Origin: Geitlerinema sp. PCC 9228
GTDB taxonomy: Bacteria; Cyanobacteriota; Cyanobacteriia; Cyanobacteriales; PCC-9228
Length of the DNA stretch: 46,361 nucleotides
Direction of reading: 5' to 3'
Assembly: GCF_001870905.1 (NCBI RefSeq)
Contig: NZ_LNDC01000077.1
Location: forward strand, 1 to 46,361
Shown here: piece by piece, positions 8,656-46,361 of the stretch
How positions within the stretch are numbered: the stretch's first letter is position 1
How the letters are laid out: every line of letters begins with the position of its first letter
Translations under genes and position numbers: made by a program
Notes under the pieces: generated by a model
The model's input: only the letters and a program-made list of their open reading frames with translations
Told to the model about the DNA's origin: nothing
The model's database searches: none

Positions 8656-8658
8656 TCG

Positions 8659-26657: not shown

Positions 26658-26780
26658 ACGCGATCGCGCAGCCATCCCCTGGAGCATTCCTGAAAAGATA
26701 CCTGCATAAGTTGGTTTTTGGGGAGAATTATTTTAGGGTAAAGGTCGAGAGAAAAATTATTTTTGCTTCAGGAATTTCAT

Positions 26781-29684: not shown

Positions 29685-29692
29685 AAGCCAGA

Positions 29693-30298
29693 TTAGCTGG
29701 GAACTTCCATCCCCCGTTGTACGGCAGGTCGTTGTTGGATGGTTTCTAGCCAGCGTTTGAGGTTGGGGTATTCTTCCATGGATACGCCCAACCGTTCGCA
29801 AATGGCAATCCAGGGATAGGTACTCATATCAGCAATGGAATACTCACCGCAAATATAATCGCGATCGCTGAGTTGTTTGTCTAAAACCCCGCACAGGCGC
29901 GATGCTTCTTTTTCGTAGCGTTCGATGGCGTAGGGAATATTTTCCTGGGCAAAACGCTTAAAATGGGCAAGTTGCCCAAACATTGGACCCACACCACCCA
30001 TTTGGAACATGAGCCATTCAATGACTTGGTAGCGGGATTTGGTATCTGCCGGCAGAAATTTCCCCGTTTTTTCCGCCAAATACATCAAAATGGCACCGGA
30101 TTCAAATATGGTTAGGTCAGCGTCTTGGTCTACAATCGCCGGAATTTTGCCGTTGGGATTGATAGCTAAATATTCTGGTTTTTTCTGTTCTCCTTGGGTG
30201 AGATCGACTTTGTGGACATTGTAGGATAATCCCACTTCCTCCAGCATAATGGAGGCTTTGCGACCGTTGGGAGTTGAGAACGTGTACAGCTCAATCAT
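29693..30298 (-). CDS. Glutathione S-transferase (YfcG/YghU/Ure2-like)
   Basis: A 201-residue GST. The thioredoxin-like N-terminal domain has MIELYTFSTPNGRKASIMLE (Ser/Asn near residues 8-11 at the glutathione site), NPNGKIPAIVD with the cis-Pro, and ESGAILMYLAEKTG, the glutathione-gamma-glutamate binding motif. The helical C-terminal domain has FGQLAHFKRFA and CGEYSIADMSTYPWI (N-capping box). This subgroup in Escherichia coli acts as a glutathione-dependent disulfide reductase. It is cytoplasmic. Nothing in the context points to a specific substrate. Confidence 0.92.
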   Translation of the reverse strand: MIELYTFSTPNGRKASIMLEEVGLSYNVHKVDLTQGEQKKPEYLAINPNGKIPAIVDQDADLTIFESGAILMYLAEKTGKFLPADTKSRYQVIEWLMFQMGGVGPMFGQLAHFKRFAQENIPYAIERYEKEASRLCGVLDKQLSDRDYICGEYSIADMSTYPWIAICERLGVSMEEYPNLKRWLETIQQRPAVQRGMEVPS

Positions 30299-30432
30299 AA
30301 CTATTTAACCATTCAGTTGAAAAACGCCTACTTTCTATTCAAACAGCCCATGGGGAAAAATAGCAATCCCAACGAGCCATCTACAGGTTATGCTAGAAGG
30401 TAGACAATCAGCCTAGTTTGGAGGAACTGTCG

Positions 30433-31032
30433 GTGGGAACTTGGCGCGATCGCATGAACCAATGGCAAGGACGTACTCGTTTCGTCGTCTGTCGCATTTT
30501 CATCCATTTAGCGGGGGCAGAAGTAGCCCCCATACTAGGAGTTCTCAACCGTGCCGCCCAAGAAGCCGTAGACGCGGAAGGAGATATAGAAGTTTTGGGG
30601 AAAGGATTGACAGACATCTGCCAAACCTTAATCCAAAATCAAGTTTACTGGCGCGCCGCTGCCAACGAAGGGGATGTTTTTTGGCGGGAAGAAGAAGCCG
30701 GCGACTACGTGGAAGAACTTTTCACCGATTCCGCCCAAAGATATCTGAGTGCCCCCCTATCCGAACCGCCAGATAGCGGAGAACCCCTTTCCCTGCCAGC
30801 TACTCATAACCTCGTCGTTATGATAACTGTAGCTGCAACTGGGGAAACCCCCGAACTAGAAACAGATTTAGCCGACTGGGAAGCCTTGCAAGAAGGTCTA
30901 AAAACCCTAATTACCCTGCACCACCAAGAAAGACTGCGTGCCATTCAAGTTCATTTCTCCCCAGCACGTTTTGGTGAAGAACTTACCGAAGAACAAGTTC
31001 TCAGCAATTTTCCAGAACTAATTCCCTTATAA
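30433..31032 (+). CDS. DUF1517-family protein
   Basis: A 199-residue protein with no membrane segment. The family region is NLVVMITVAATGETPELETD followed by LQEGLKTLITLHHQERLRAI and VHFSPARFGEELTEEQVLSN, the DUF1517 pattern in which a strand-helix unit ends in a P-x-x-x-D/G-E-x-L motif. Other DUF1517 proteins, some of them plastid-targeted, have no settled function. The start is probably GTG 30433, since GGAGGAA (30420-30426) lies 6 bases before it. The frame also opens at a TTG at 30418 that would overlap this SD. A lipoprotein gene follows after 70 bases. Confidence 0.8.
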   Translation: MGTWRDRMNQWQGRTRFVVCRIFIHLAGAEVAPILGVLNRAAQEAVDAEGDIEVLGKGLTDICQTLIQNQVYWRAAANEGDVFWREEEAGDYVEELFTDSAQRYLSAPLSEPPDSGEPLSLPATHNLVVMITVAATGETPELETDLADWEALQEGLKTLITLHHQERLRAIQVHFSPARFGEELTEEQVLSNFPELIPL

Positions 31033-31102
31033 ATCGTTCCATTTCATTGTCCAATTCCAGCATAAAAATTGTTGCTATCCTGGTGAAATATAATCAAAGC
31101 CT

Positions 31103-31969
31103 ATGTTAACCACAACCTTTCGTCAAACCATCGCTTTACTCATGGTCGTACTGCTCAGCAGTACAATGAGTGCTTGCGGCGGCAGCCCTTCTCAAAGCGA
31201 AATGAAAAGCGGTACCCCCGTTGCCAACCGCAGTAGCGCCCCCACCCAACTGCAAAATGGCGAATATCCAGTCCAACAGGCATCTTACGACGATGCCACC
31301 GGCGAATATACCATATTTTTGCTCAACGCTTCTCCCCCCATGGTTCGCACCAGCGACCTAAAAATGGCAGCCTTAACTGAAGAAGAACGCAACCAAGGCA
31401 AAAGTTCTTATTTAAAAGTAGAGGGAAACGAAGTTTCCTTGCACTTAACCCCAGACTTTCGCATTGAGTACGTTCACGCCGTAACCGAAACCCGCAACGA
31501 CCCACAAACCGGGCAGCAAGAAACCGTTGTTGTACGTCGGGAATCTAACTTTTGGGCACCATTTGCCGGAGCTTTAGCCGGTCAAGCCATAGGCAGCATG
31601 CTATTTTCCCCCAGCTACTACGTACCACCACCGTACCAACCAGGTTCCGTTATGACCGGATATGGCGGTTCTGGGGATACCTATCGCAGTGCCGTACAAA
31701 GCTACCGCCAGCAACATAAAGAACCCCCAGCTGCCGTCAAAAATCGTCAAGCCAACCTGCGAACCACCGGTCGTATTGGCTCCCCGAGCAGCACCACCCG
31801 TACCAATCGTTCCACTGGTTCCAGAGGTACAGGTTCCGGCTACGGTGGCAACACCCTGCGACGCTCTGGCGGTTCTTCCCGAGAAAACATCCGCAAACCC
31901 AGTTCTCGGCGAGGCTTTGGTAGCAGCGGTTCTTCCCGTCGTTCCGGTGGCAGTCGCCGCCGTCGTTAG
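31103..31969 (+). CDS. Lipoprotein with a basic Arg/Ser/Gly-rich C-terminus
   Basis: A 288-residue protein. Signal peptide ALLMVVLLSSTMSACGG contains a lipobox, giving Cys25 as the lipidated residue, so it is membrane-anchored on the periplasmic side. Residues about 50-165 form a globular region (YDDATGEYTIFLLNASPPMV, EYVHAVTETRNDPQTG). A Gly/Ala-rich stretch FAGALAGQAIGSMLFSPSYY could insert in membrane. From about 205 the chain is low-complexity Ser/Arg/Gly/Thr (SSTTRTNRSTGSRGTGSG, SSRRSGGSRRRR), strongly basic and likely disordered. I do not recognise the family. The stop codon is followed directly by an octamer repeat array, so the 3' end may have been shaped by repeat expansion. Confidence 0.75.
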   Translation: MLTTTFRQTIALLMVVLLSSTMSACGGSPSQSEMKSGTPVANRSSAPTQLQNGEYPVQQASYDDATGEYTIFLLNASPPMVRTSDLKMAALTEEERNQGKSSYLKVEGNEVSLHLTPDFRIEYVHAVTETRNDPQTGQQETVVVRRESNFWAPFAGALAGQAIGSMLFSPSYYVPPPYQPGSVMTGYGGSGDTYRSAVQSYRQQHKEPPAAVKNRQANLRTTGRIGSPSSTTRTNRSTGSRGTGSGYGGNTLRRSGGSSRENIRKPSSRRGFGSSGSSRRSGGSRRRR

Positions 31970-32072
31970 GGAGCGTACCGAGCGTACCGAGCGTGGGGGC
32001 GTACCGAGCGTGGGAGCATGGGAGCGTGGGGGCGTGGGAGCGTGGGAGCTTGGGAGCTTGGGAGCTTGGGAG
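31970..32072. repeat. Octameric tandem array, left block
   Basis: Starts one base after the lipoprotein stop. It is built from about 12 units of 8-9 bases: GAGCGTACC at the left, then GGAGCGTG and GGAGCATG, and three identical GGGAGCTT units at the right end. Frames crossing it read as repeated Gly-Ala-Trp-Glu or Gly-Ser-Leu peptides, an artefact of the repeat. It is the complement-oriented relative of the next array and resembles cyanobacterial short tandemly repeated repetitive (STRR) sequences. Confidence 0.85.
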
Positions 32073-32090
32073 ATATAATTGGTTGTTTTC

Positions 32091-32225
32091 TCCGATGCCC
32101 CGATGCTCCGATGCCCCGATGCCCCGATGCCCCGATGCTCCGATGCCCCGATGCTCCGATGCTCCGATGCCCCGATGCTCCGATGCCCCGATGCTCCGAT
32201 GCTCCGATGCTCCGACGCCCCGATA
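32091..32225. repeat. Octameric tandem array, right block
   Basis: About 17 units of CCGATGCC or CCGATGCT in irregular alternation, separated from the left block by an 18-base AT-rich spacer. Its complement reads AGCATCGG, related to the AGCATGGG/AGCTTGGG units of the left block, so the two arrays face each other and could form an imperfect long hairpin or cruciform. No spacers of unique sequence occur, so it is not a CRISPR. Confidence 0.88.
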
Positions 32226-32366
32226 CTACCATACGGAAACCCGACCGAACAGCAACATTTTTCCCGGAATCACGTCGGTTAATATAGAAACAAATAGAAA
32301 AATGCAGAGCCATGGGATTGGTTCTGAGAAAATTATATTGTTCGTTCTGCACTCACCAAAGTTATC

Positions 32367-33233
32367 ATGTCTCATCCTTTCTCCATTCAATTCTATAAAT
32401 CCCCAACCCGACGTCGTTGGTTGTTGCCGGTTTTATCGGTAGCCACGGCTAGTAGTTTGGTACTCGGTTCCACTGCTGAAGTACAAGCCTTTTCCTTGGG
32501 TGATTTGCTGCGCGGGGGCGTTCAAGTCATTCAAGGGATTCAACTTTCTAATATGTCCCCGGAAAAAGAAGTGGAACTGGGCAAAGATATCAATGAATAT
32601 CTTATTGAAGAAGAAAATTTGGCTATCTCTGATAACGAGAGGCTAACTCGATACGTGAACAATATCGGGCAAAGACTAGCGAAAAAAAGCGATCGCTCCG
32701 ATATCCCCTACACCTTCCAAGTAGTCGAAGACGATAGCGTGAACGCCTTTGCCACCATGGGTGGTTATGTCTACGTGCACACTGGCTTAATCCGCGAAGC
32801 CGACAACGAAGCCCAATTAGCTAGTGTCATCGCTCACGAAATCGGGCATATCGCCGAAAAACACGCTCTCAAACAAATGAGCAACGCTGCCATTCAACGG
32901 GGCATTATCACCGCCTCGGGGATTGACCACAGCACTGCCGTGCAGCTGGGTGCCGAATTTGCCCTACGTCGCCCCAGAAGCCGCGAACACGAATACGAAG
33001 CCGACCGTTTGGGTGTGGAAACCCTCGGTCGCGCTGGATATGCCCAGTGGGAAATGATTCAATTCTTTGAAAAACTAACCGGCGGGGCTTCTATCCCCGA
33101 ATTCCTCAGCACCCATCCCGATACGGAAAAACGCATCGAACGGCTTAAAAGCATGCTCGACCCACAAACAGCGAAAAACGGCTATGGTACCAATCGCAAT
33201 ACCTATCAGTCCCGTTTAAATTCCCTTATGTAA
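32367..33233 (+). CDS. M48-family metalloprotease
   Basis: A 288-residue peptidase. The N-terminal segment (RRRWLLPVLSVATASSLVLG, followed by AEVQAF) is a signal peptide. The catalytic HEIGH is at 157-161, with the third zinc ligand Glu211 in EHEYEADRLGVE. MGGYVYVHTGLI precedes the site and STHPDTEKRIERL follows, both typical of the BepA/LoiP/Oma1-like M48 branch. No additional membrane helices are visible, so it is a periplasmic or outer-membrane-quality-control protease by analogy. It is a single gene between the octamer arrays and the AddB-like nuclease gene. Confidence 0.9.
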   Translation: MSHPFSIQFYKSPTRRRWLLPVLSVATASSLVLGSTAEVQAFSLGDLLRGGVQVIQGIQLSNMSPEKEVELGKDINEYLIEEENLAISDNERLTRYVNNIGQRLAKKSDRSDIPYTFQVVEDDSVNAFATMGGYVYVHTGLIREADNEAQLASVIAHEIGHIAEKHALKQMSNAAIQRGIITASGIDHSTAVQLGAEFALRRPRSREHEYEADRLGVETLGRAGYAQWEMIQFFEKLTGGASIPEFLSTHPDTEKRIERLKSMLDPQTAKNGYGTNRNTYQSRLNSLM

Positions 33234-33323
33234 TGGTAGGATATAAAATTGGGGTATAGGAACATAGGGAAAACCAACCCTATCTCTTCCCCCTATTCCC
33301 CTTCTTCCTATCATTCCATCGCC

Positions 33324-36041
33324 ATGCGCACCGTTTGCACTGCTACCTACTCACCAGATTGGTATCGCCAACAGATACAAACGCATCAATTGCAGCTGGT
33401 GGCTGCAACACCGCAAGCTGCCAAAACGGTGAGACTGCCCTACCAACCCTACTATACGTTGGAACGTCTCGCCCAAAAACGTTTGTCTCGCGTCGGAAAA
33501 GCGATCGCACCTCCTTTAATCGCCCATCAGGCGCTGTGTTTGGCTATCGAACAAGTATACAATTGCAGCGATATACCGGGAACTGCCCGGGCAATGATGC
33601 CCACCGTTAGAGACTTGCTGCGTTCCGGGGGTGACCTTCAACTTGATTCAGGGCAAGCTTTTGAAACCAACGCGGTGGATATGCCTTCCTGTGTGTCTTT
33701 GGTTCCCGCCTACCAACAACAGCTACATGCCAATGGTTGGGTAGACCAAGCGGAACAGTTTTGGCAGGCTTGTCAGCAGGAAAATCAAACTTTCCACGTC
33801 GGGGCGTTTGGCGAAACGCCCTTATTTATTTACGGATATTTTTATTTAACTCCCGACCAATTGGCGTTTGTCGATGCCATAGCCGGCGATGGTAGCATTT
33901 TGGTCTTGCCTAGCGGCGATGCAGATTGGTTTGCCGACAATCGAGATGCCTTGGCGCAGTTACAACAACAAGGTTGGCAAGTTGAAAGCGAACCCGCCAC
34001 ATCTGCTACACCTAACCTAGGCACTCGCTTGCAGGAAAAATTTTTAGGCAACAGTTCCCCACCGGCGGAAGTGCCTTGTTATGCCTATCCCCATCTAGAA
34101 GCTGAAGTTCGCGGCATTATGGGCAAAGTTAAAAGCCTGCTGCGTCGGGGGGTTTTGGCACGCGATATTGCGATTGTTGCCCGCAATGATGCTTTTTACG
34201 GAGATACCATCCTCGATATTGCTACAGAATACCAAGTTCCCGTGCGGGCGTTGTATGCTGTTCCTCTATCGGAAACTAGATTGGGGGCTTGGATGCAGGA
34301 TTTGCTGCAAGCTATTGACCAGGATTTTCCCTTCGAACTGACGGCGAGGGTGTTGCGCCATCCCCTCGCCGGGCGTTTGTCGCCGGATGAATGGCAACAA
34401 GTGCGTCAATTCCATCCCCAAGGGATTTCCCAATGGCAAAAAGCCGGTGTCGATTTATCTTTGTTGGCAACCAACGAACGGGATACCTATGAAAATTGGG
34501 TTTCCCGATTGCAGCAGATTTTAACCGATTGGCAAATTCGACAAAGGGCTGCCCGTTGGGCGCGGGAAATCGTTGCTTTTTATCAATGGAAGGAGGCATT
34601 AGCCCTGTTGCAAAAACGTCGGGAAAATATTGTGGTTTCCCGTGCGGAATTTATTGAAGAAGCGATCGCTACTCTTAATTTAACCACAGTTCCCGCCCAA
34701 CCAGGTCGCGGCGGCGTGGCATTGCACAATCCCATTTCCCTATTTGGTGCCCAATACCAACATATTTTTGTGGTGGGAATGGCTTCGCGCCTGCTTCCTC
34801 AACCCATTCAAGACGACCCCATGTTGGATTTTTGCGATCGCAAATGGTTGCGCCAACAAGGAATTCCCATCAACACTGCTCCCCAATATGCCCGCCAGGA
34901 AGCTTTTGCCTTTTATAATTTATTGGGAACCGCCACCGAAAGCCTCACGTTTTCCTATCCCAAGCTTATCTCTCAAGAAAACTACGACCCCAGCCCCTAT
35001 TTAGAATCTTTAGAAATATCACCCAGCGAACCGCCTCCCCTCGCGATCGCAAGTTGGGAAACCGCCCGTCGCATCGCTTTGCAAAACCAGCAGCTTGTTC
35101 AAAAACTATCCAAACGCGATCGCATTTTACCCACCATCCAACACGCCTGGGAAGTAGAAAAACAGCGAGAAAGCACCGCCCCTTACAACGAATACGACGG
35201 TGCCATCCAAATTTCCATCGACCCCAACCGACGAAAATTCAGCGCCTCCCAACTCACGCAAATCGGTCATTGCCCCTTCCAGTGGTTTGCCAGCCGCCTG
35301 TTGAAACTGGAAGAACTAACAGAAGCCGATACCGAGTTAAGCTATTCTTTGAAAGGCAAACTATATCACAAAGTCTTAGAAAAATTTGCCCAACGAGTAT
35401 TGAGCGAAATTGAAAAGGAAACCCTAGAAACGACCTTAGAAACCGCCTTCGATGAAGCCGAAAAAGACGAAAAAATCGCCGCAGAAATTGCCGCAGTGGA
35501 AGGTTGGCAAGCCAGGCGTCAAGAACATTTGAATACATTGCGCCACGCTATTTCCCAAACTGACTTTCTCCCACCGGGTGCCACCATTCAAGATACGGAA
35601 AAACGTTTTGAGGGCACCTGGCATGACTTGCAAATTACCGGTTATATCGATCGCATAGATTCTACCAAAGACGGCTTGCGCATTGTCGATTATAAAACCG
35701 CATCTAACCCTCCCAAAGGCATCAAAGACCAACAAGGGCAACTAAAAATTGACATTCAATTACCCCTCTACGCCCAGGTAGCTGCCCCAAGTTTGTTTCC
35801 CAACCAGCCAGTCGCAGCAACTGTTTACTATTCTTTGACCAAAGGCAAAATTTTCAACAAAACGAAAAAGGCAACAGCGCAAGAGGACATAGCACATTTT
35901 GCTGAAAAAGTCAAGTATTATTTGCAAGCTGGATACTATCCCGTCAACCCCGATAGAAAGCAAGAAGCCTGCGAGCAATGTTCGTTTGATTTGGTATGCC
36001 GTCGGGGCAATCGTTTGGCGAGGAAAACGGAAGAGACATGA
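33324..36041 (+). CDS. AddB-like PD-(D/E)XK nuclease with Fe-S cluster motif
   Basis: A 905-residue protein. The first 600 residues resemble an inactive UvrD-like helicase fold: no Walker A is visible, but GVALHNPISLFGAQYQHIFV and GMASRLLPQPIQDDPML match the region after motif V in AddB/RecB relatives. From about 635 comes a RecB-type nuclease: GYIDRID (Asp776) and IVDYKT (Asp789, Lys791), then QLPLYAQ. Cys650, Cys883, Cys886 and Cys892 give the C...CxxCxxxxxC set that holds a 4Fe-4S cluster in AddB and Cas4. Likely role: DNA end processing in recombination repair with an AddA/RecB partner, which is not encoded here. I chose ATG 33324, since conservation begins there; upstream extension to 33249 lacks support. 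Confidence 0.82.
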   Translation: MRTVCTATYSPDWYRQQIQTHQLQLVAATPQAAKTVRLPYQPYYTLERLAQKRLSRVGKAIAPPLIAHQALCLAIEQVYNCSDIPGTARAMMPTVRDLLRSGGDLQLDSGQAFETNAVDMPSCVSLVPAYQQQLHANGWVDQAEQFWQACQQENQTFHVGAFGETPLFIYGYFYLTPDQLAFVDAIAGDGSILVLPSGDADWFADNRDALAQLQQQGWQVESEPATSATPNLGTRLQEKFLGNSSPPAEVPCYAYPHLEAEVRGIMGKVKSLLRRGVLARDIAIVARNDAFYGDTILDIATEYQVPVRALYAVPLSETRLGAWMQDLLQAIDQDFPFELTARVLRHPLAGRLSPDEWQQVRQFHPQGISQWQKAGVDLSLLATNERDTYENWVSRLQQILTDWQIRQRAARWAREIVAFYQWKEALALLQKRRENIVVSRAEFIEEAIATLNLTTVPAQPGRGGVALHNPISLFGAQYQHIFVVGMASRLLPQPIQDDPMLDFCDRKWLRQQGIPINTAPQYARQEAFAFYNLLGTATESLTFSYPKLISQENYDPSPYLESLEISPSEPPPLAIASWETARRIALQNQQLVQKLSKRDRILPTIQHAWEVEKQRESTAPYNEYDGAIQISIDPNRRKFSASQLTQIGHCPFQWFASRLLKLEELTEADTELSYSLKGKLYHKVLEKFAQRVLSEIEKETLETTLETAFDEAEKDEKIAAEIAAVEGWQARRQEHLNTLRHAISQTDFLPPGATIQDTEKRFEGTWHDLQITGYIDRIDSTKDGLRIVDYKTASNPPKGIKDQQGQLKIDIQLPLYAQVAAPSLFPNQPVAATVYYSLTKGKIFNKTKKATAQEDIAHFAEKVKYYLQAGYYPVNPDRKQEACEQCSFDLVCRRGNRLARKTEET

Positions 36042-36047
36042 ATTGGG

Positions 36048-36071
36048 GGGGCAACCACGGGGGGTTGCCCC
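36048..36071. repeat. Hairpin downstream of the AddB-like gene
   Basis: GGGGCAACC (36048-36056) and GGTTGCCCC (36063-36071) form a perfect 9-base stem with a 6-base loop, followed by TACAG. It shares the CCCCTACAG edge of the MITE-associated hairpins. It has no T-run, so it is more likely a dispersed repeat than a terminator, though it lies between convergent genes. Confidence 0.5.
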
Positions 36072-36124
36072 TACAGTTGCGGATAAAAAATGAGGGGCAT
36101 TTCCAACTGAATTGGAAAACCTTT

Positions 36125-37525
36125 CTACAACTTTTGCCCGCGAATGGATAAATCCAATAATTCCATCGGATGCATCAACGGCATTTCCTTCCCTTGCAGG
36201 CGCATGTGTTTTTGAATTTGCAACGAACAACCGGGATTGGGCGAAACAATTAACTCTGCCCCCGTATCGAACAAATTCTCTACCTTCTGTTCGCCCAACT
36301 CATCTGCTACTTGCGGCTGCAACATATTGTAAACCCCCGCACTGCCGCAACACAGTGCCGCATCCACAGGTTCGCGCAAACGGATATTGGGAATTTGTTG
36401 CAAAACTTGCCGGGGTTGCAGGCTAATTTGTTGCCCGTGTAGTAGGTGACAGGCATCTTGAAAAACAATGGGCAATTCTTGGTCGCTGACGGGATGCAAA
36501 TCCGCCGTCATGCCTACTTCTGCCAAAAATTCCTGCACGTCGCGCACTTTGGCGGCAAAATTGGCAGCTTTTTCCCGATATTCTGGGTCGTCTTCCAAAA
36601 TATGACCGTATTCTTTCAATGTATGCCCGCAACCGGCAGCATTGATAATAACAGCATCCAAATCCATGCCTGCAAAAGAATCAATCAACTGACGGGCAAG
36701 GCTTTGGGCTTGGGCTTCTTGACCTTGGTGGGCGGGCAATGCCGCACAACAGCCTTGACTTGGCGGAATTACAACCTCGCAACCGTTGGCAGTTAGCACC
36801 CGCACGGTGGCTTCGTTGACGGGATGGAAAAACAAACGCTGCACGCATCCTAGAATAACACCAACCCGATAGCGTTTTTCTCCTTGGGCGGGAATCACCG
36901 TGGGGAAATTGTCGCGAAAGGCATCTGGCGTTAGTTGCGGCAGAATGGATTCCATGGCACCCAGGCGGGGGAAGATTTTGGGTAGCAAACCGGTGGCGCG
37001 CACTAGTTTTTGCAATCCCAGTTTTTGATATAAAAATAAGGGGGCTAGCAGCCAACGCAGCCGGCGGGGGTAGGGAAATAGGGAGAAAATCAACCCCCGA
37101 ATGAAGCGATCGCGCCAAGAACGTTCTACGTTACGCTCTACTTGGGGTCTAGTGGCAGCAATTAAGCGATCGTAAGCCACCCCGGAAGGGCAGGTAGTGA
37201 CACAGGCAAGGCAACCCAAACAGGTGTCAAAATGCTGGGTGGTAGCGGGTTCTAGAGGCACATCTTCTTTGTTGATGGCATCCATCAAATAAATACGCCC
37301 CCGGGGAGAATCCATTTCTTTGCCGATGACGCGATAGCTGGGGCAGGTAGCCAAACAAAACCCGCAATGCACGCAGGTATCGATGATATCTTGCTGGGGG
37401 GGATTTTTGCTGTCAAAGGTAGGAAATTGTAAGGGGGCTTCGTGGGTGGGAATTTCTGGAGATTCTTCTGTTTGGATATCCTCTAATTTGGCTGGTCTGG
37501 TTTGGGGATTTTCCGATTGTGTCAT
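36125..37525 (-). CDS. glcF: GlcF, iron-sulfur subunit of glycolate dehydrogenase
   Basis: A 466-residue protein. Two 4Fe-4S ferredoxin motifs lie near the N-terminus: CVHCGFCLATCP (Cys51, 54, 57, 61) and CLGCLACVTTCP (Cys102, 105, 108, 112). Two CCG-type cysteine-rich domains follow (QGCCAALPAHQGQ and ALCCGSAGVYN). This is the arrangement of GlcF, which passes electrons from the flavin subunits to the quinone pool. The substrate in cyanobacteria is photorespiratory glycolate and sometimes D-lactate. It is the last gene of larB-glcE-glcF, 49 bases after glcE. No transmembrane segment is predicted, so it is a peripheral membrane subunit. Confidence 0.92.
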   Translation of the reverse strand: MTQSENPQTRPAKLEDIQTEESPEIPTHEAPLQFPTFDSKNPPQQDIIDTCVHCGFCLATCPSYRVIGKEMDSPRGRIYLMDAINKEDVPLEPATTQHFDTCLGCLACVTTCPSGVAYDRLIAATRPQVERNVERSWRDRFIRGLIFSLFPYPRRLRWLLAPLFLYQKLGLQKLVRATGLLPKIFPRLGAMESILPQLTPDAFRDNFPTVIPAQGEKRYRVGVILGCVQRLFFHPVNEATVRVLTANGCEVVIPPSQGCCAALPAHQGQEAQAQSLARQLIDSFAGMDLDAVIINAAGCGHTLKEYGHILEDDPEYREKAANFAAKVRDVQEFLAEVGMTADLHPVSDQELPIVFQDACHLLHGQQISLQPRQVLQQIPNIRLREPVDAALCCGSAGVYNMLQPQVADELGEQKVENLFDTGAELIVSPNPGCSLQIQKHMRLQGKEMPLMHPMELLDLSIRGQKL

Positions 37526-37574
37526 ATGAAATCCTATTTGAAAAGTGTGAAAAGTTTTCTAGAACCAAAATTTT

Positions 37575-38882
37575 CTAAATGCCACCGACAAAACGATAGG
37601 GATTGAGAATTTTGCGATCGTCAAATTGATTTTTAATTTTCTCCATCCAGGAAAAGGCGTTTCCCGAATAGCCCCAAACATCGATTTGGTTTTTGAGTGC
37701 TGGAGGAGCTTCTAAAATGGTCAGAAAACCGCGTTCGGTTTCGCAAAAAGCTCGCAAACGTTTAATTTCATCGCTGGTTGGCTGCCCCTCTTGGTAGGGA
37801 AAACGAATTCTTCCCAAACCGCTGCGACCCCGCATACAAGCGATCGCGCCTTTTGGAATTTGGTCGAGACAAGCCACCGCTGATGTAGGTTTTACTCCTA
37901 TTTTGCCGAGAATTTCCCATCCTGGGGACGGTGATTCCATAAAAGTTGACAATCTTTTCCATAAATCGCTTTCATTAGCATCCCCATAAATTTGGGCATT
38001 TATACTTACATTTTCCAGGATTTTAACGGTATTTTTAGCCTGTTCTTCCACGCTTTCTGGTGTGCTTTGAAACCGCACCCACAATCCCATCTCATTTCCC
38101 ATGTCTAATTGAGCCATTGCACTGGCAGATACGTATTCCAAAGCCGTTGGAGTAAGCGTTGAAGCCAACAGCATTTTGCCAGCTTCCGCGATTTGGGAGA
38201 CATCGCCGCTAATCACAACTGTGGTAGCTGCCGGTGGCATGGGATAAGCGCGAAATGTCACTTGGGTTAAAATTCCTAAGGTGCCGTAAGAGCCGGTAAA
38301 TAATTTCATCATGTCGTAGCCGGCAACATTTTTGACGACGCGCCCTCCCGCTTTGGCAAAAACGCCATCGGAACGCACAAAGGAAATGCCAATCAACTGG
38401 TCGCGCACACCGCCATACCGCTGTCGTAAAAATCCCGAATCTGCGGTGGCTACCATACCTCCTAGGGTAGCGCGATCGCGGTAGGTTGGATCCAGCGCCA
38501 AAAACTGATTTTCTGCCGCCATCGTCGCCTGCACTTCCGCAAAAGGCGTTCCCGCAGCCGCTGTCAGCGTTAAATCACCCGCCGCATGTTCCACCACGCC
38601 GCACAAACGCTCGGTGCTAACAATTAGTTTGACACCGGATGCCAAGCCTCCCCAATCAATTTTGCTGCTGTTGCCGGTGGGTAAGATGCCCCAGCCATTT
38701 TTATAAGCCAGGGCAACCACTTCCGCCAAAGCTTCCGGCGTTTGGGGAACAACCATACATTCCGGCAAAGATGCCCTAGGTGAGAGCGCCTTTTTTATCT
38801 TTTGCTGGCGCTGTTGGGGCAACTGTTCAAAAGCGACAATATCCGCCGCATCTACAATTGTTTCTAAACTGTTGACAACCAT
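37575..38882 (-). CDS. glcE: GlcE-like FAD-binding subunit of glycolate dehydrogenase
   Basis: A 435-residue flavoprotein of the FAD_binding_4/VAO fold. Visible parts: PQTPEALAEVVALAYKNGWG, LPTGNSSKIDWGG (FAD pyrophosphate binding), ATLGGMVATADSG, and KAGGRVVKNVAGYDMMKLFT followed by GSYGTLGILTQVTFRAYP. The VVKNVAGYD-KLF-GS(Y/F)GTLG segment is typical of GlcE rather than full GlcD. It forms part of the GlcDEF complex oxidising glycolate (or D-lactate) to the keto acid. It lies between larB and glcF on the same strand. No glcD is present in the window, so that subunit must be encoded elsewhere. Confidence 0.9.
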   Translation of the reverse strand: MVVNSLETIVDAADIVAFEQLPQQRQQKIKKALSPRASLPECMVVPQTPEALAEVVALAYKNGWGILPTGNSSKIDWGGLASGVKLIVSTERLCGVVEHAAGDLTLTAAAGTPFAEVQATMAAENQFLALDPTYRDRATLGGMVATADSGFLRQRYGGVRDQLIGISFVRSDGVFAKAGGRVVKNVAGYDMMKLFTGSYGTLGILTQVTFRAYPMPPAATTVVISGDVSQIAEAGKMLLASTLTPTALEYVSASAMAQLDMGNEMGLWVRFQSTPESVEEQAKNTVKILENVSINAQIYGDANESDLWKRLSTFMESPSPGWEILGKIGVKPTSAVACLDQIPKGAIACMRGRSGLGRIRFPYQEGQPTSDEIKRLRAFCETERGFLTILEAPPALKNQIDVWGYSGNAFSWMEKIKNQFDDRKILNPYRFVGGI

Positions 38883-38951
38883 TGCTTATTTATTTTGAAC
38901 TACTGCAAAAACAAACGCGGGGGGGAACCAAGCAAGCACTGAGACTTACTC

Positions 38952-39731
38952 CTAAGATGGCTCCCTATCCCGCAAACCAACTGCCGTGCGCAAAATTTGC
39001 CCAGCCAGAATCGCTGCCCCAAAGCCGTTGTCGATGTTGACCACGCCAATCCCGGGGGCACAGGAGTTCAGCATGGTCAGCAAAGGTGCCAAACCGTTAA
39101 AACTAGCACCATAACCGATACTGGTGGGAACAGCAATCACGGGAGAATCCGCCAAACCAGCTACTACGCTGGGCAAAGCCCCTTCCATACCAGCTACCAC
39201 AATTAAAACATCTACAGAAGCGATCGCTTTTCGGTGGTTGAGCAAGCGATGGATACCAGCAACGCCAACATCCGTAAAACGCCGTACGGAAAAACCGCAT
39301 AATTCTGCCGTCACCGCTGCTTCTTCCGCTACAGGCAAATCAGAAGTACCCGCACACAAAACAGCAATTTTCCCGGGTTTGGGGCTGGGATAGCAAGGAA
39401 TGGAACAAATGCGAGCAGTTTCGTAGTAATGCAGTTCCGGAATTTTGGGTTGAATTTGCCGATACACTTCTGGCGAGATTCTGGTTGCCATCACCAGGGG
39501 AGATTTCTGCCGCATTGCCAGCATAATTTCTACAATTTGTGCGGGGGGTTTCCCAGCGCCGTAGACCACTTCTGGAAATCCGGTGCGCAGGCTGCGGTGG
39601 TTGTCAATCTGCGCGAAATCTCCTACAGCTTGCACGTTGAGAAATTTTAGCTGTTCTTGGGCTTGTTCCGGGGGTATGTTGCCTGCTGCTACATTTTCTA
39701 AAAGGTTTCTGATAGATTCGTTTTGCTGCAT
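38952..39731 (-). CDS. larB: LarB, nickel-pincer cofactor biosynthesis carboxylase
   Basis: A 259-residue protein of the PurE/AIR-carboxylase-like family. Motifs: GFPEVVYGAGKPPAQIVEIM near residues 50-70, IAVLCAGTSDLPVAEEAAVT, DVGVAGIHRLL, VVAGMEGALPSVVAGL and PTSIGYGASFNGLAPLLTML. LarB carboxylates nicotinic acid adenine dinucleotide, the first step to the nickel-pincer nucleotide used by lactate racemase LarA and relatives. It lies 69 bases upstream of glcE and may share its transcript. larC, larE and larA are not in the window. Confidence 0.93.
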   Translation of the reverse strand: MQQNESIRNLLENVAAGNIPPEQAQEQLKFLNVQAVGDFAQIDNHRSLRTGFPEVVYGAGKPPAQIVEIMLAMRQKSPLVMATRISPEVYRQIQPKIPELHYYETARICSIPCYPSPKPGKIAVLCAGTSDLPVAEEAAVTAELCGFSVRRFTDVGVAGIHRLLNHRKAIASVDVLIVVAGMEGALPSVVAGLADSPVIAVPTSIGYGASFNGLAPLLTMLNSCAPGIGVVNIDNGFGAAILAGQILRTAVGLRDREPS

Positions 39732-39871
39732 AGGGAAATGGAGAGGTTGGTAGAGGGCAGGATTTGTATGTTGTTTTATAGCATTTTTTTTCGATGGTGA
39801 AAATGAAATTTGGTGGCTGTTACGAGGGTTCCCGTGGATCCAAATTACGGTAGTCTGCCCGAATATGATTC

Positions 39872-39991
39872 ATACCAAATCCGATGTGTGTAAATCATAT
39901 TTGAGATAGAAGAGGGGGAGGAGGGGAAAACCACCAGAAGTTGTAGCCTTAGCCTGGGGAATTTATCGGGTTTTCTCAGTACGGATTTGGT
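39872..39991. repeat. MITE-like element, family B, copy 2
   Basis: Inverted ends ATACCAAATCCG (39872-39883) and CGGATTTGGT (39982-39991). The left end continues GATGTGTGTAAATC, similar to GATGTACATACACC in copy 1 at 13200. The interior differs and includes a purine tract (GAAGAGGGGGAGGAGGGGAA). It abuts a family A element at 39994. Confidence 0.55.
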
Positions 39992-39993
39992 TT

Positions 39994-40117
39994 TATATAG
40001 CAATTTCACATCAAATATAAACGGAATATATCTAGAAATTTGGAAACCCTGTAGGGGCGGTTCGCGAACCGCCCCTACCAATTGCATCATATACACGCCA
40101 AGTGAAAACGCTATATA
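39994..40117 (-). repeat. MITE-like element, family A, copy 3
   Basis: The best-preserved copy, 124 bases. Ends TATATAGCAATTTCAC (39994-40009) and GTGAAAACGCTATATA (40102-40117) form 16-base terminal inverted repeats with 14 matches. The centre is the palindrome TAGGGGCGG and CCGCCCCTA around TTCGCGAA. It lies in reverse orientation relative to the copies at 16963. Confidence 0.75.
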
Positions 40118-40175
40118 GCAATTTCACATCAAATATAAACGGAATATATCTAGAAATTGGGAAACCCTGTAGGGG
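40112..40175 (-). repeat. MITE-like element, family A, copy 4 (truncated)
   Basis: Begins TATATAGCAATTTCAC at 40112, sharing TATATA with the end of copy 3, in the same orientation. It follows copy 3 closely to CCCTGTAGGGG, then breaks off in the first arm of the central palindrome. Bases 40176-40209 before the next gene end hold only a HIP1 site and part of GGAAAATTTTCC. Confidence 0.7.
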
Positions 40176-40209
40176 GGGGATGAGCGATCGCTGGCGCTGG
40201 AAAATTTTC

Positions 40210-41619
40210 CTAAGCTTGCAAATTTTCATGGTTGGGGATGGTGGAAATATCAAAGCTTTGATACAAATCCCGCAAAATTGCTGTAATTTTAGAACTGTAA
40301 TCTTCGGATGGGGTCCATTTTCCGGCAAGGTCATCAATTGTTGCTGCAGAACCACGAGGTTGAACCAGGTCAAATCGCGGATCGACAATGGGTGGATTGT
40401 TAATTGGTTCGGTGGTTGCGTAAGCTTTCAGATGCTGGATATGAGCTTTTACACCAGTCTTGGTATCGGGGAAGGAAGCACCTTGTTTGTTCTCGTTAAT
40501 AGCTCCCAATCCAGCAAAATTGTTTTGGCTGGCTTCTACTATACCATGAAAGGCTAAATAACCGGTTTCCAGACACATTTGACAGAAGGCAATATCGTGA
40601 TTGATTCCTTCTTTTTCTGCTTCTTCTACATATACCTCAGCGATGTGGGGAAAGCGATCGACAAATTGTCCGGAGTTATGATTTTTGAGAAAATTCGTTA
40701 GTTGTGCGGCACTGGCTTTTCCAGTTCCTTGAATGCGTTCGAATTGGGATGGAAAATTGATAACAACGGTGTTGCGATCGCGTTGGAAGTGAACACCAAC
40801 ATTTAGCGAAACCAGACTATTGGCACGAATGTAAACAACGTCATTTTGTTTTTTTCGGGGAATGCTTTGGTCTGGTTCGTATCCTAGCGTTTTGACTGCT
40901 AGGTCTTGTTTTACATAGGGTTGCTTGTTGGCGACAATGGCGGCTTCGGCAAACTTTTTGCCGTTGATTTCTGCATCAATTTTGGTATACTGTTTGTTTG
41001 GGTTGATAAAGCGTAGTTGGGATAAAACTGCGAGCGCGGCATCTCCAGGACAGTCGGTTTCGTCCACATCTCGATGGGCAAAAACTTCGCGATCGCTATG
41101 GTTCGGTGTTACAGTTCCTAGATGGGATAGTGGTGCGTAGGGTCCGCCATAATTGCTAGCATTGGGGTCAAATTTTAGCCAACCCAAAAACTGAGAGATT
41201 AAATCGGTATAGGGGTGGAGATCGAGGTTGTAGTTTTCAAAGTCTCCCTGCAAGGCAATACCAATAGCGCGATCGTTAAATCCCCTGGTATGCGCTCCGG
41301 AACGGTCTTCTCCGCGACCTTCACATACATAGATGGATGGGGTTTTTGTATTCATTAAAAAGACCACAAAGTTATAAGGGACATCGTATCCCAAATCCGG
41401 TCGAATGGTTTGTAATTTTTGCATTTGGTTGATAACATGGCTTTCTGTTTCCCACAAGTTTTTCGATGGGTCGGAGTCAACAATAACGGTGTGGTGAATG
41501 AAAACGCGATCGCGATAGCTTCGGGGAACAATATCACCGCGACGGGGAAAGTTAGGGTCGGCGGACCAACTGTCTCGATCGAGATAAGTAACCCCCGGTG
41601 CAATATCGATTTTTGCCAT
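40210..41619 (-). CDS. Bifunctional cell-wall hydrolase: PGRP-type amidase plus glucosaminidase-like domain
   Basis: A 469-residue protein. Residues about 35-220 are an Amidase_2/PGRP domain: VFIHHTVIVD holds the first zinc His, NFVVFLMNTKTPSIYVCEGR and GIALQGDFENY follow, and AHRDVDETDCPG carries the second His and the Cys ligand. The C-terminal part (about 305-460) has FPHIAEVYVEEAEKEGINHD, ICFQ-like CQMCLETGYLAF and NFAGLG, which match GH73 glucosaminidases with Glu in LETG as the likely acid. So it should cut both peptide and glycan bonds of peptidoglycan. No signal peptide is visible at the chosen ATG 41619, which has AGGAAAC upstream. How it reaches the wall is therefore unclear; a phage-endolysin origin is possible. 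Confidence 0.82.
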   Translation of the reverse strand: MAKIDIAPGVTYLDRDSWSADPNFPRRGDIVPRSYRDRVFIHHTVIVDSDPSKNLWETESHVINQMQKLQTIRPDLGYDVPYNFVVFLMNTKTPSIYVCEGRGEDRSGAHTRGFNDRAIGIALQGDFENYNLDLHPYTDLISQFLGWLKFDPNASNYGGPYAPLSHLGTVTPNHSDREVFAHRDVDETDCPGDAALAVLSQLRFINPNKQYTKIDAEINGKKFAEAAIVANKQPYVKQDLAVKTLGYEPDQSIPRKKQNDVVYIRANSLVSLNVGVHFQRDRNTVVINFPSQFERIQGTGKASAAQLTNFLKNHNSGQFVDRFPHIAEVYVEEAEKEGINHDIAFCQMCLETGYLAFHGIVEASQNNFAGLGAINENKQGASFPDTKTGVKAHIQHLKAYATTEPINNPPIVDPRFDLVQPRGSAATIDDLAGKWTPSEDYSSKITAILRDLYQSFDISTIPNHENLQA

Positions 41620-42045
41620 TGTTTGTTTCCTCAATATAATCTTTCAAAATGTATAAGCTCAAGATGCCTTACAGGGGGTATTTCTGTGGGAAAACGCATT
41701 CGTCAGGAAATTTTGGGAAATACCACCATAAAAAAAACAGATATGTACAAGCAATGAAATCTTAATGATATTTCAAATTATTTTGTAGATAAAATTCTAA
41801 TTTCGTTTTTTAAAAATTCGGTTATTAAAAAATATAGATAGCTAAGAATTTAAGAATTTATAGCTTGCTTGGGGAGATTTGTGTCCGTGCCAGCCGAGCG
41901 AGGCGTGCCATGGTTGGCTGCAGGGGTAGCCAATTGGAGCGAAAGTACGCTATAATAAAATGTTTAACAACTCTCCCACCTAACAGCATATCGCTTCGCA
42001 GTTGGGAAAACGGAAAGCGTCGTTTGCAATTTTGGCAATGTTTCT
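41620..42045. other. 426-base intergenic region, partly AT-rich
   Basis: Divergent region between the wall hydrolase and the broken rlmB. Bases 41755-41865 are very AT-rich, with no clear promoter pair that I would defend. GCCAGCC (41888-41894) and GGTTGGC (41912-41918) could pair. No gene or known RNA is recognised. Confidence 0.35.
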
Positions 42046-42552
42046 ATGGCTTCTTCACCCCATCGTTCCCCATCCAAATCAAAAGCCAAACCCCCCCATC
42101 AATCCCACCACAAAAAATCTGCCGAACCGGCACCATCTGAAAGTTCTCAAAAAGATCTTGTGTTTGGACGCCACAGCGTTTTGTCTTGTTTGGAACAGGG
42201 AAGACCCCTCGATCGCATTTGGTTGGTCGCCTCCCTGCAAAAAGATTCTCGATTTCAACCCCTTTTGCAACAAGCCAAGCAACAAGGAACCGTCATCCAA
42301 AAAACCGATCCCCAACATTTAAACCGCCTCAGCCAAGGGGGAAACCATCAAGGGATTGTGGCGCAAATGGCTGCCTACCAATATCAAGATTTAGAAGACT
42401 TGGTGGCTGCCGCCAAAGCCGCTACGGATTTTCCAGTCTTAATCGCTGCCGACGGCATTACCGATCCCCACAATTTAGGCGCTATTATTCGCACCGCCGA
42501 AGCTTTCCGAACCCAAGGTGTGGTGATTCCTCAACGGCGTTCCGCATCGGTT
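42046..42552 (+). pseudogene. rlmB: Truncated rlmB (23S rRNA 2'-O-methyltransferase, SPOUT/TrmH family)
   Basis: From ATG 42046 the frame encodes a basic lead (SPSKSKAKPPHQSHHKKS) and then the RlmB/TrmH substrate-binding domain (DLVFGRHSVLSCLEQGRPLD, GGNHQGIVAQ). The start of the SPOUT domain follows (VLIAADGITDPHNLGAIIRT, AEAFRTQGVVIPQRRSASV). Homology stops at Val169. The rest of the SPOUT knot, which binds S-adenosylmethionine (about 100 residues with the later conserved motifs), is missing. The frame then runs on to 42759 in unrelated sequence that is a shadow of another gene. The protein should be inactive. The junction lies at about 42541-42565. Confidence 0.85.
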
Positions 42553-43051
42553 TGTGCAACAGTACCTCACCATACGCGCTCCCATAACTGGTACAGTTTT
42601 AGCAGACGGCAACTTGGATTTGCGAGAAGGAGATTTAATCGAACCCAACGCTTCCCAACCCACCGCTTTGATGACAATCGCCAACCTCCAACAACTGGTC
42701 GCCAACGTCAAAATTCGCCAAGAAGATATCCAATTTGTGGAAGCAGGCAAATCCGTTAGCTTCCGTTCCAAACAAGATAAACTCGATCCCTACCCCGCCG
42801 AAGTTCACGCCATCGGCAAAGAAGTCACCACCGACCAAGAAACCAAAAAGCGAGTCATCCCCGTACAGGTCATCGTAGACAATCCCCAAGGAGAAGACCG
42901 ACTGCGACCCGGAGGTACCGGCTATGCCAAAATCCATTCCCAGGATATGTTCCTATACCAGCGATTGGGTCAAGAATTGGTCCGTCTCCTGCCAGCCAGA
43001 CTGTTCCCCAGCGGCAACATGAACGACAAGCAAAATCCATCGGAAAGTTAA
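42553..43051 (+). pseudogene. C-terminal fragment of a membrane-fusion (HlyD-like) protein
   Basis: In a different frame from rlmB, the sequence reads QQYLTIRAPITGTVLADGN, then LREGDLIEPNASQPTALMTI, VANVKIRQEDIQFVEAGKSV, and DRLRPGGTGYAKIHSQDMFL. This is the second half-lipoyl motif, beta-barrel and C-terminal part of a HlyD/RND-type periplasmic adaptor, possibly of the kind fused to M50-like peptidases. The N-terminal hairpin, signal and first lipoyl half are absent. A GTG at 42554 could start translation, but the product would not fold as an adaptor. Its stop codon overlaps the uvrC stop on the other strand. Confidence 0.8.
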
Positions 43052-44946
43052 GAAGCATCGGGATGAAAATAATCGTAAATTTGTTTCGCCAAATGGGGAC
43101 CAATGCCTGGCGCTTCTGCAAGTTGTTCCGGCGTGGCTATGCGAATGTAGTCCACCGAACGAAAATGAGCCAACAATTGTTTCTGCCGTTGGAAACCTAA
43201 GCCGGGAATATCTTCTAAAAGCGATCGCTTCATACGTTTGTCCCGTCGGCTGCGATGGAAACTCACCGCAAACCGATGCGCCTCATCCCGCAAACGTCGC
43301 AATAACTGTACCCCCGGTTGTTCGGCATCTGTTTCCAACGGCAGCGACTCCCCTGGCAAAAAGATTTCCTCCCGCTGCTTTGCCAACCCCACAACGCGCA
43401 GGTGTTGCAGTAAATTCATCTGCTGCAAAACATCTACCGCCGCCGATAGCTGACCTTTGCCGCCGTCAATTAACACCAAATCGGGAAAATCATCCGGATG
43501 CGACATTTCCACATCCATATCCCGATACTGGCGAAACCGCCGTTGGATAACTTCCGCCATACTGGCAAAATCGTCGGAATGACCCCCTTGTACATTGGGA
43601 TTTTTAATTTTATAGTGGCGGTATTGCTGGTTGGCTGGCAATCCATCCAGGAAAACCACCCGCGAAGCTACGGCATCCGACCCCTGAACGTGAGAAATAT
43701 CGTATCCTTCAATGCGATGGGGAACTTTGGGTAAATCTAAGATTTCCGCTACGTCTTGCAAGGCGGCTGTATTGCGATCGCTCATTCGTTGCAGCCGTTG
43801 CAGTTCGTATTCCGCATTTTGTTTCACCATCGCCAGAACCGACCCACGATTGTTCCCACCATTTCTCACTTGCCGTTGGGGAACCACAAACGATACCTGC
43901 TTGCCTTTGCGGCTACCCAACCATGCCGCCAGCATTTCTCGGTCTGGCAAATCTGTTTCCACCACAATTTCCGTGGGAATTTCCACCGCATCCACATCGC
44001 GATAGTGTTCCGATAAAACCCGCGAACAAATTTCCCCGGCTTCCCCGGCATTCGCCAAAAATCCCAAACGTCCTACCAATTGTCCGGCGCGAAACTGGAA
44101 TAATTGAATGCAGGCGCGTTGGTCGTCGCTGGCAATCGCGATCGCATCCCGCGAAACTCGGTCGTCTGGTAAAGTAACCTTGCGGTCTACCCCTAATTTT
44201 TGCAAACCGCGAATTTGGTCCCGCAACCGCGCCGCTACTTCAAAATTTTGCGCTGCTGCTGCTGTTTCCATCTGTTTTTGCAGGCTGTTAACCAATTCTT
44301 CGGTTCTCCCCTGGAACACCATCGCTACCCGTTGGACGATTTCTCGATATTCCGATGGGGAAATTAACTGTTGGCATACGCCAGGACATCTGCCAATGTC
44401 GTAGTTGAGGCAAGGACGGTCTTTAAATAGGGGTTTGGGACGCTGGCGCAGGGGAAAAATTCGTTTTAAGAGGTTTAGGGTACTGTAGAGTTGGTGCGCG
44501 TCTACATAGGGTCCGTAATAGCGGTCCTGGGGATTTTGCCGGCGTCGCTTGCGGGTGGCGAAAATGCGGGGGTAAGTTTCCGACCAGGTAATGCACAAAT
44601 AGGGATATTTTTTGTCGTCTTTTAATAAAACGTTAAAATAAGGTTGGTGTTGTTTGATTAGGTTCGCTTCTAAAATCAGCGATTCTTCTTCGGTGTCGGT
44701 GACGATAAATTCTATGTCGGCGACTTGGCGCACCATGAGTTGGATGCGATCGCTTAATTGTTGGGATGGGCTAAAATAGGAACGGACCCGCGATCGCAAT
44801 TTTTTGGATTTGCCGATATACAGAATGCGATTTTCCCCATCCCGCATGATATACACGCCGGGAACTGGCGGAATTTCCCGCAAACGGCTTTCCAAGCGTT
44901 CCCTATCTTCGATTAAAGGAGAGAATTCTGTTTGCGTGCCCCTCAT
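43048..44946 (-). CDS. uvrC: UvrC, excinuclease ABC subunit C
   Basis: A 632-residue DNA repair endonuclease making the 3' and 5' incisions at lesions bound by UvrB. Domains in order: GIY-YIG nuclease ([20 protein letters not shown], about 27-50); a four-Cys region ([13 protein letters not shown]); the UvrB-binding UVR motif ([20 protein letters not shown]); an RNase H-like nuclease with [15 protein letters not shown] and [14 protein letters not shown], whose Asp residues form the 5' site; and a C-terminal (HhH)2 ([27 protein letters not shown]). The length is normal. It converges with the broken adaptor gene, with overlapping stops. Confidence 0.96.
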
Positions 44947-45099
44947 CAGTTTGCCGCTATCTGGTTTCTCCGTTTTCTAGTTTATCGCGGGGTTGGCGTA
45001 GGCGTTGTGAAAACTGTCCAGAATTGTTTCCCCATATCGGCTACAGAAATTATATTCTAGAAGGGAGTGGCAAATTTTTCCGAATTTGGGGTTTTAAGC

Positions 45100-46332
45100 G
45101 TGGATAAGATTCCCCCTCTGGATTTGGCGCAGCAATACGAAACCATTAAGGCAGAAGCTGCCCAAGCCGTGGCTGAGGTGCTAGCATCGGGACGTTACAT
45201 TGGCGGTACGCCGGTAAGCGAGTTTGAGGCGCAATTTGCGGCTTACCACCAGGTGTCGTCATGTGTGGCTTGCAATTCCGGTACGGATGCGCTGTTTTTG
45301 GCGTTAAAGGCGTTGGAAATTGGTCCTGGTGATGAGGTGATTACGACGCCGTTTACGTTTATTGCGACTGCAGAAGCGATTGCGATGGTTGGCGCAACGC
45401 CGGTTTTTGTGGATATTGACCCGCGTACGTTGAATTTGGATCCGCAATGGATTGAAAAGGCAATTCGCGATCGCACCAAAGCTATTTTACCAGTGCATTT
45501 GTTCGGACAACCGGCGGATATGAGCGCTATCAATGCGATCGCTAGGGCCTATAATTTATATGTTATCGAAGATTGTGCCCAAGCAACTGGCGCTACCTGG
45601 GGCGGACAAAAATGCGGCAGTATCGGCGATATTGGCTGTTTTAGTTTTTTCCCCACCAAAAATTTAGGCGCTTGCGGCGATGGTGGTGCTATTGTTGCCA
45701 ACAACCCCAATCTCGCTGCTAAAGTACGCATGTTGAAAGAACACGGCAGCCGTTGTCGCTACTACCACGAAGTGACTGGTACCAACAGCCGCCTGGATGC
45801 CATTCAAGCGGCGATTTTAAATATTAAACTTCGCTATTTGGATAGTTGGAACCAGCGGCGGCGGGAGTTACAAGCCAACTATCAGGATTTGTTGCAAAAT
45901 GGCTGTGGCAAAACCATGTTGGTGGGGAAGGAACTGTCGGAAGCTATGCCAGCCAACCAACCTGCGGTGATTTTGCCTCAAGAATTGTCTGACGGATGTG
46001 GCGTTTGGAATCAATATACTATTCGCGTTTGGGATGGTTCCAGCTATAGTAGCGAATTTCGCGATCGCATTCGCCAGCAGTTACAAGCTGCCGGTGTCGC
46101 TACCATGGTTTATTATCCTATTCCTTTACATTTACAACCGGTCTATCAATCTTTGGGGTACACAGCCGGTTGTTTCCCCGTCGCCGAATCAACAGCCAAA
46201 AGTGTTCTATCCTTGCCGATTTTCCCAGAAATGACCTTCGCACAGCAGAAAAAAACGGTTTGTGCTTTGCAGGATTGCGTCACTGACCCCGCGCTAAAGC
46301 GACGGGGCTTGGGAACAGCCAGGTTCCCGTAG
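45100..46332 (+). CDS. DegT/DnrJ/EryC1/StrS-family sugar aminotransferase
   Basis: A 410-residue PLP-dependent aminotransferase acting on nucleotide-linked keto-sugars in surface-glycan or secondary-metabolite pathways. Motifs: IPPLDLAQQYETI start, SGRYIGGTPVSEFE, ACNSGTDALFLALKAL, DEVITTPFTFIATAEAI, VIEDCAQATGA and FSFFPTKNLGACGDGG with the PLP lysine in PTKNLG, then LKEHGSRCRYYHEVTGTNSR. I chose GTG 45100 because homologues begin near IPPLDLAQ; GTG 45067 is an alternative that would add 11 residues. The last 15 residues (DPALKRRGLGTARFP) are encoded by what looks like a mobile-element end, so the native C-terminus (near LQDCVT) was probably altered by insertion. The active site is unaffected. 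Confidence 0.87.
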   Translation: MDKIPPLDLAQQYETIKAEAAQAVAEVLASGRYIGGTPVSEFEAQFAAYHQVSSCVACNSGTDALFLALKALEIGPGDEVITTPFTFIATAEAIAMVGATPVFVDIDPRTLNLDPQWIEKAIRDRTKAILPVHLFGQPADMSAINAIARAYNLYVIEDCAQATGATWGGQKCGSIGDIGCFSFFPTKNLGACGDGGAIVANNPNLAAKVRMLKEHGSRCRYYHEVTGTNSRLDAIQAAILNIKLRYLDSWNQRRRELQANYQDLLQNGCGKTMLVGKELSEAMPANQPAVILPQELSDGCGVWNQYTIRVWDGSSYSSEFRDRIRQQLQAAGVATMVYYPIPLHLQPVYQSLGYTAGCFPVAESTAKSVLSLPIFPEMTFAQQKKTVCALQDCVTDPALKRRGLGTARFP

Positions 46333-46361
46333 TAGTGGCTAGACCAAGAGCCGATAGTAGT
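46285..46361. mobile_element. Candidate terminus of an IS200/IS605- or IS607-type (TnpB-bearing) element, cut by the window edge
   Basis: CCCCG-CGC (46287-46294) pairs with GCG-A-CGGGG (46299-46307) around the loop TAAA, giving an 8-base stem with a single bulged A. It is followed by a second hairpin, GGGAAC (46311-46316) with GTTCCC (46323-46328). On the reverse strand it reads AAGCCCCGTCGCTTTAGCGC then GGGGTCAGTGAC, the style of right ends found beyond tnpB genes in cyanobacteria, where the guide RNA scaffold also lies. It interrupts the tail of the aminotransferase gene. No tnpB is visible because the window ends here. Confidence 0.5.

Follow-up and report, generated by a model that had tools for sequence, protein, structure and literature searches.

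A truncated second rlmB joined to an adaptor-gene remnant in Geitlerinema sp. PCC 9228: a probable case of recent gene decay by deletion

The stretch of Geitlerinema sp. PCC 9228 DNA analyzed here (the window, 46,361 bases, which is contig C77 in full, from a draft genome of 4,795,982 bases in 223 contigs with estimated completeness of 100% and contamination of 0.33%) carries a second, truncated copy of the 23S rRNA methyltransferase gene rlmB that runs out of frame into the end of an adaptor gene. We consider it likely that this locus is the non-functional remnant of a deletion that joined the two genes, and the best reading of it is ordinary, recent gene decay by deletion, affecting an extra rlmB and an adaptor gene. 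Taken alone, the locus suggests that a conserved rRNA methylation has been lost, an annotation risk that is corrected by the intact rlmB kept in the genome. On this reading, it also adds a fresh case of a housekeeping gene whose diverged second copy disappears by deletion and takes an export-type gene with it. The locus and its neighbours are laid out as follows:

40210 to 41634, minus strand: neighbouring Amidase_2/Glucosaminidase gene, TftA-like (Amidase_2 25.9 bits, cut-off 26; NCBIfam TftA 247.9 bits, cut-off 500)
41948 to 42045, plus strand: upstream region and 5' leader resembling those of the intact rlmB on contig C74, with a common CGCTATAAT (-10-like) motif, from DNA alignments
42046 to 42759, plus strand: fusion ORF of 237 aa, with 173 RlmB codons followed by 64 out-of-frame codons over the adaptor remnant
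42157 to 42387, plus strand: complete SpoU_sub_bind, the RlmB N-terminal substrate-binding domain (Pfam PF08032, residues 38-114)
42436 to 42561, plus strand: first third of the SpoU/SPOUT methylase domain, remainder missing (Pfam PF00588, positions 2-43 of 142)
42554 to 42564, plus strand: junction, with bases assignable to either parent (homology to rlmB DNA extends to 42564; alignment with adaptor homologues begins at the QQ or L codons, 42557 on)
42554 to 43051, plus strand: HlyD/RND-type membrane-fusion (adaptor) gene reduced to its C-terminal third, from profile matches and homologue alignment
43048 to 44946, minus strand: neighbouring uvrC, complete, convergent with the adaptor remnant and overlapping it by 4 bases

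The RlmB part of the fusion ORF retains the substrate-binding domain, matched over all 76 profile positions of PF08032 (1-76; E 1.1e-22), and lacks a complete methylase domain, the match to PF00588 having an E of 1.3e-8. The NCBIfam RlmB model TIGR00186 is matched at positions 1-136 of 240, with 120.6 bits against a cut-off of 160.15. An earlier note on this DNA had described RlmB homology as intact to Val169 and the methyltransferase active region as lost. Both the intact homology and the loss are borne out, but the last valine (42562-42564) is codon 173 of the fusion ORF and residue 170 of the intact protein. The cofactor-binding C-terminal knot is located in the last two thirds of the SPOUT domain, and since most of that domain is missing, knot included, the 237-aa product should not methylate rRNA.

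On the other side of the junction, the frame open from 42554 encodes 165 aa that match HlyD_3 (E 4.4e-13) and positions 106-211 of 214 of HlyD_D23, in agreement with the earlier description of adaptor homology intact from just after 42553 in another frame; RND_mfp is matched over positions 133-247 of 322, at 44.6 bits with a cut-off of 94.9. The remnant is 50% identical to residues 318-457 of a 458-aa homologue, and the N-terminal two thirds of an HlyD/RND protein (anchor, lipoyl half-motif and coiled coil) are not present in it. Its six closest homologues, at 45-50% identity, belong to other cyanobacterial families, and matches at E up to 0.001 occur in 113 of 388 genomes, the host's own counted, most of them weak. 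An M50 peptidase gene adjoins the adaptor in 15 of the 16 loci fetched from 18 places matching at 42 bits or more, the sixteenth (L065) ending at a contig edge; among weaker loci with a clear adaptor, M50 is present in L074 and is not seen in the available flanks of L012, L066 and L067. The M50 query had no match in the genome under study and was positive in 8 of 30 genomes; because M50 is missing from 21 of 29 relatives too, its absence here argues only weakly for a loss. Our literature search returned nothing on peptidase M50 with HlyD in cyanobacteria.

The front half of the adaptor gene, which the earlier note had proposed to look for elsewhere in the genome, was not found in the rest of the assembly with two full-length homologues as queries, which yielded weak matches on C94 (21% identity), C52 (24%) and C191 (20%). 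The C52 match was rejected as the missing half, since it spans homologue residues 67-434 within a 457-aa frame and hence looks like a separate HlyD-like gene. A weak match on C102, whose ORF adjoins a long RND-pump-like ORF (judged by eye), was rejected as well.

At the junction, the RlmB and adaptor sides either meet directly or share up to about 8-11 nt, and such an overlap may reflect microhomology, a possible rather than a proven feature. Neither the RlmB frame nor the adaptor frame contains an internal stop.

A genome DNA search, in which the best 40 of 57 candidates were scored, revealed a second rlmB place on C74, with 80% identity over the RlmB part only. The gene there (C74:37003-37839) is the complete rlmB whose existence the earlier note had left to be checked: it encodes 279 aa, with both Pfam domains full (PF00588 at 2-142). 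It has Mini-III 2.4 kb upstream, with one gene between, and DUF1816 downstream, a neighbourhood conserved among relatives (Mini-III in 28 and DUF1816 in 27 of 29 loci fetched). Hence, C74 most likely holds the resident rlmB, and the window copy would be the extra one. An orphan 3' half of rlmB was not found in the assembly, the other four own-genome matches being 26-39% identical.

Judging from its sequence, the C74 gene should methylate 23S rRNA, and loss of Gm2251 through the lesion in the window was rejected as an expectation because this intact gene is present in the same genome. The earlier claim that G2251 methylation would depend on another gene is thus true, with the qualification that the other gene is simply the normal rlmB. 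PMC7056703 names RlmB as the enzyme that makes Gm2251 in E. coli, made use of a Keio rlmB deletion strain, and cites a paper titled to the effect that rlmB is essential for Gm2251 and not for ribosome maturation. Losing a spare copy should do no harm. By their titles, the publications searched contained nothing on rlmB copies in cyanobacteria. Among 39 same-order relatives, one strong RlmB match was found in 36 (split over two adjoining pieces in G009), with no second match above 75.2 bits in any of them, and three (G022, G026 and G029) had no match above 60 bits, G026 and G029 being 75% and 61% complete. G022, in turn, is 99% complete and its best RlmB match reaches 59.3 bits, which suggests that loss of rlmB is tolerated in this order.

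The divergence between the window and C74 copies is informative about when the former was cut. About 20% of their bases differ, yielding dN of 0.088-0.095 and dS of 0.80-0.92 over the 169 aligned codons together. Of the 135 residues in the domain part, 129 agree and 6 differ (dN 0.031-0.033, dS 0.74-1.14, ranges by method), with 10 differences at the first, 2 at the second and 55 at the third codon position, while the 34 codons of the N-terminal tail show no constraint (dN 0.37-0.44, dS 0.39-0.53; 18 of 34 identical). The residue of the window copy is also that of most relatives at sites 38, 138, 148 and 160 (20, 26, 25 and 24 of 29, respectively), so the differences there look like changes in C74, and that at site 133 looks like a change in the window copy; sites 93 and 118 can be assigned to neither copy, and the remaining differences lie in the variable tail. 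Site 148 is Ala in the intact rlmB, Ile or Val in all 29 relatives and Ile in the window copy. Exactly at this site the intact gene holds the octamer GCGATCGC (L003:4430-4437), which we take to be HIP1 and which occurs 64 times in the window. On a tree that rests on the shared part, the window copy having no letters in the C-terminal part, the two genes pair with 100/100 support and end branches of 0 for the window copy and 0.17 for C74.

Had the fragment drifted without selection since the split, roughly a hundred amino-acid changes would be expected in its domain. The window copy shows far fewer, and it thus seems to have been a full-length, functional rlmB, under selection, that was cut recently. 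As a rough bound, no more than 3-7% of the time for which the copies have been separate would have passed since the truncation, a Poisson estimate that allows the window branch 1 to 3 changes and takes the fragment as unselected and the branches as equal. The earlier observation of no decay on either side holds for both open frames, and on the RlmB side it is strengthened by the signature of strong past purifying selection and the few derived residues.

The extra copy also seems to have kept its own upstream region, since its alignments with C74 extend beyond the coding sequence: the local DNA alignment runs from 41991 to 42564, with 461 of 577 columns identical, and the CGCTATAAT at 41948-41956 is aligned to the C74 copy in the global alignment as well. 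A promoter scan found TAGCCA-18-TATAAT at 41927-41956, but as this is 1 site against 2.0 expected by shuffling, and no promoter-like site was found on the plus strand upstream of the C74 rlmB, a promoter of the window copy is suggestive only. An inverted repeat (42180-42196 and 42765-42781, 16 of 17 bases complementary) was dismissed as chance, because both of its arms are coding, it lies off the junction and an equal pair arose in 3 of 150 shuffles.

How the genome came to have a second rlmB is less firmly indicated. Divergence of about 20% of bases, together with the lack of RlmB pairs among relatives, suggests horizontal transfer, the source being an unsampled relative within this lineage, as a likelier origin than an old duplication. 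No donor emerged: the GTDB contig scan confirmed no relative at the close range reached, the window's own records possibly being excluded, and all 121 matches in plasmid records were below 60% identity. Nothing marks the window copy as foreign, since its GC3 (0.467) resembles that of the resident gene (0.474) and no donor was found. The same two facts leave a minor though real share of probability to an old within-genome duplicate, both full-length copies having long been kept before one was cut, an account that departs from the preferred one solely in where the second copy came from, which makes the odds of the two overlap. It is favoured by the copies being each other's closest relatives in the set, by the similar GC3, and by 8 unusual residues that both share at columns conserved in at least 27 of 29 relatives. 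Against it, none of the 39 order relatives has two strong RlmB matches, and a pair so long-lived would be unusual.

Whichever the origin, the preferred reading of a deletion in a second rlmB would start from a full-length gene with its own upstream region, situated between the tftA-like gene and uvrC and followed on the same strand by the HlyD adaptor gene, which probably had an M50 peptidase partner. One recent deletion reaching from rlmB into the adaptor would explain the junction in a single step. It would have removed no less than 330 bp of rlmB and about 950 bp of the adaptor (about 1.3 kb together), or perhaps 2.8 kb or more if an M50 gene in its usual place (about 1.5 kb more) was included, and it would have joined codon 173 of rlmB out of frame to the adaptor C-terminus, perhaps through a microhomology of a few bases. 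The transfer, the order of events, the deletion size and the M50 partner are what we infer from these data. A single recent deletion is what the earlier note had proposed, and the open frames and, on the RlmB side, past purifying selection and scarce derived residues agree with it. Its description of the partners as two distant genes does not fare as well, in that both lie on the plus strand and fit one deletion between tandem genes, although no relative with the tandem was found. The comparison with relatives that it had advised likewise failed to reveal a pre-deletion arrangement: rlmB, the adaptor, M50 or the other neighbours of the window stand beside uvrC in 0 of 80 named uvrC loci (flanks up to 8 kb) and in 0 of 29 loci of order relatives (flanks of 1.5 kb or less), a weak negative given that no genome of the same family was among those compared.

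An assembly artefact, meaning that two unrelated places were joined and that either the second rlmB or the adaptor gene is in truth intact in the organism, appears unlikely. The genome is a draft of 223 contigs and no relative among the 80 and 29 uvrC loci confirms the join, as such an error would have it. Nonetheless, the 3' half of the second rlmB, the front of the adaptor and M50 were all not found elsewhere in this genome, whose assembly is estimated to be complete, and the junction is 3.8 kb from the contig end. A shared stretch of at most about 8-11 nt is, in addition, short for assembler confusion. The related idea of a contaminating or sister-strain contig was not supported, uvrC being single copy in the genome, and as far as tested the contig appears native. 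The closest relatives of this uvrC, about 70% identical, mark the genome as cyanobacterial. A comparison of 26400-46361 with the genome (best 40 of 352 candidates) matched the rlmB piece, two families of dispersed repeats and a repeat found at contig ends; for 32300-39900 (best 40 of 142 candidates) the genome yielded no other copy of gene length, only pieces of 40 bases or less. The two dispersed families, at 31965-32231 and 39909-40178, have many diverged genome copies, with longer matches at 67-97% identity, and a stretch of 26-40 bases at 36036-36076, near-exact at 20 or more places on other contigs, is a candidate small dispersed repeat. At the contig end (46271-46361), the last 83 or so bases recur at 97-100% identity in at least 14 other places, several of them at contig ends, and presumably resemble the palindromic end of an IS200/IS605-type element; the aminotransferase ORF at 45067-46332 extends into the repeat, so the final residues of that ORF probably derive from a mobile element. 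The window also contains a cobalamin riboswitch at 8516-8662 on the minus strand (65.9 bits, gathering score 31.5).

Still less credit is due to a partial duplication, by which a copy of no more than the resident gene's upstream region and 5' part entered the adaptor gene long ago and was then kept by selection for a new role, an improbable course even though homology that starts just upstream of the gene and stops at the junction resembles a partial copy and the domain part is strongly conserved. A fragment with a third of the catalytic domain would have had to keep ancestral residues over a dS near 1, which is the pattern of a whole enzyme, and the out-of-frame tail has no Pfam or NCBIfam match. 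A further reading, in which expression from the retained rlmB upstream region yields a 237-aa, catalytically dead RlmB fragment that binds RNA, has an arginine-rich tail and might, for instance, compete with the resident RlmB or modulate assembly of the 50S subunit, is very improbable indeed.

Among known systems, the closest on one side is RlmB itself, the 23S rRNA Gm2251 2'-O-methyltransferase (TIGR00186; SpoU/TrmH class of SPOUT), with which the window fragment shares the complete substrate-binding domain and the start of SpoU, and from which it differs in lacking about two thirds of the methylase domain and in scoring under the family cut-off. On the other side stand the HlyD/RND-type periplasmic adaptors encoded beside an M50 peptidase gene in cyanobacteria (L079, L081, L082); the remnant is 45-50% identical to the C-terminal third of the closest six, but, unlike in those systems, the N-terminal two thirds and M50 were not found in this genome. 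As a whole, the locus is best compared to a pseudogene formed by deletion (a truncated xenolog or paralogue), where likewise two partial genes abut out of frame and one of them is redundant with an intact gene, and the case described here is unusual only in its apparent freshness.
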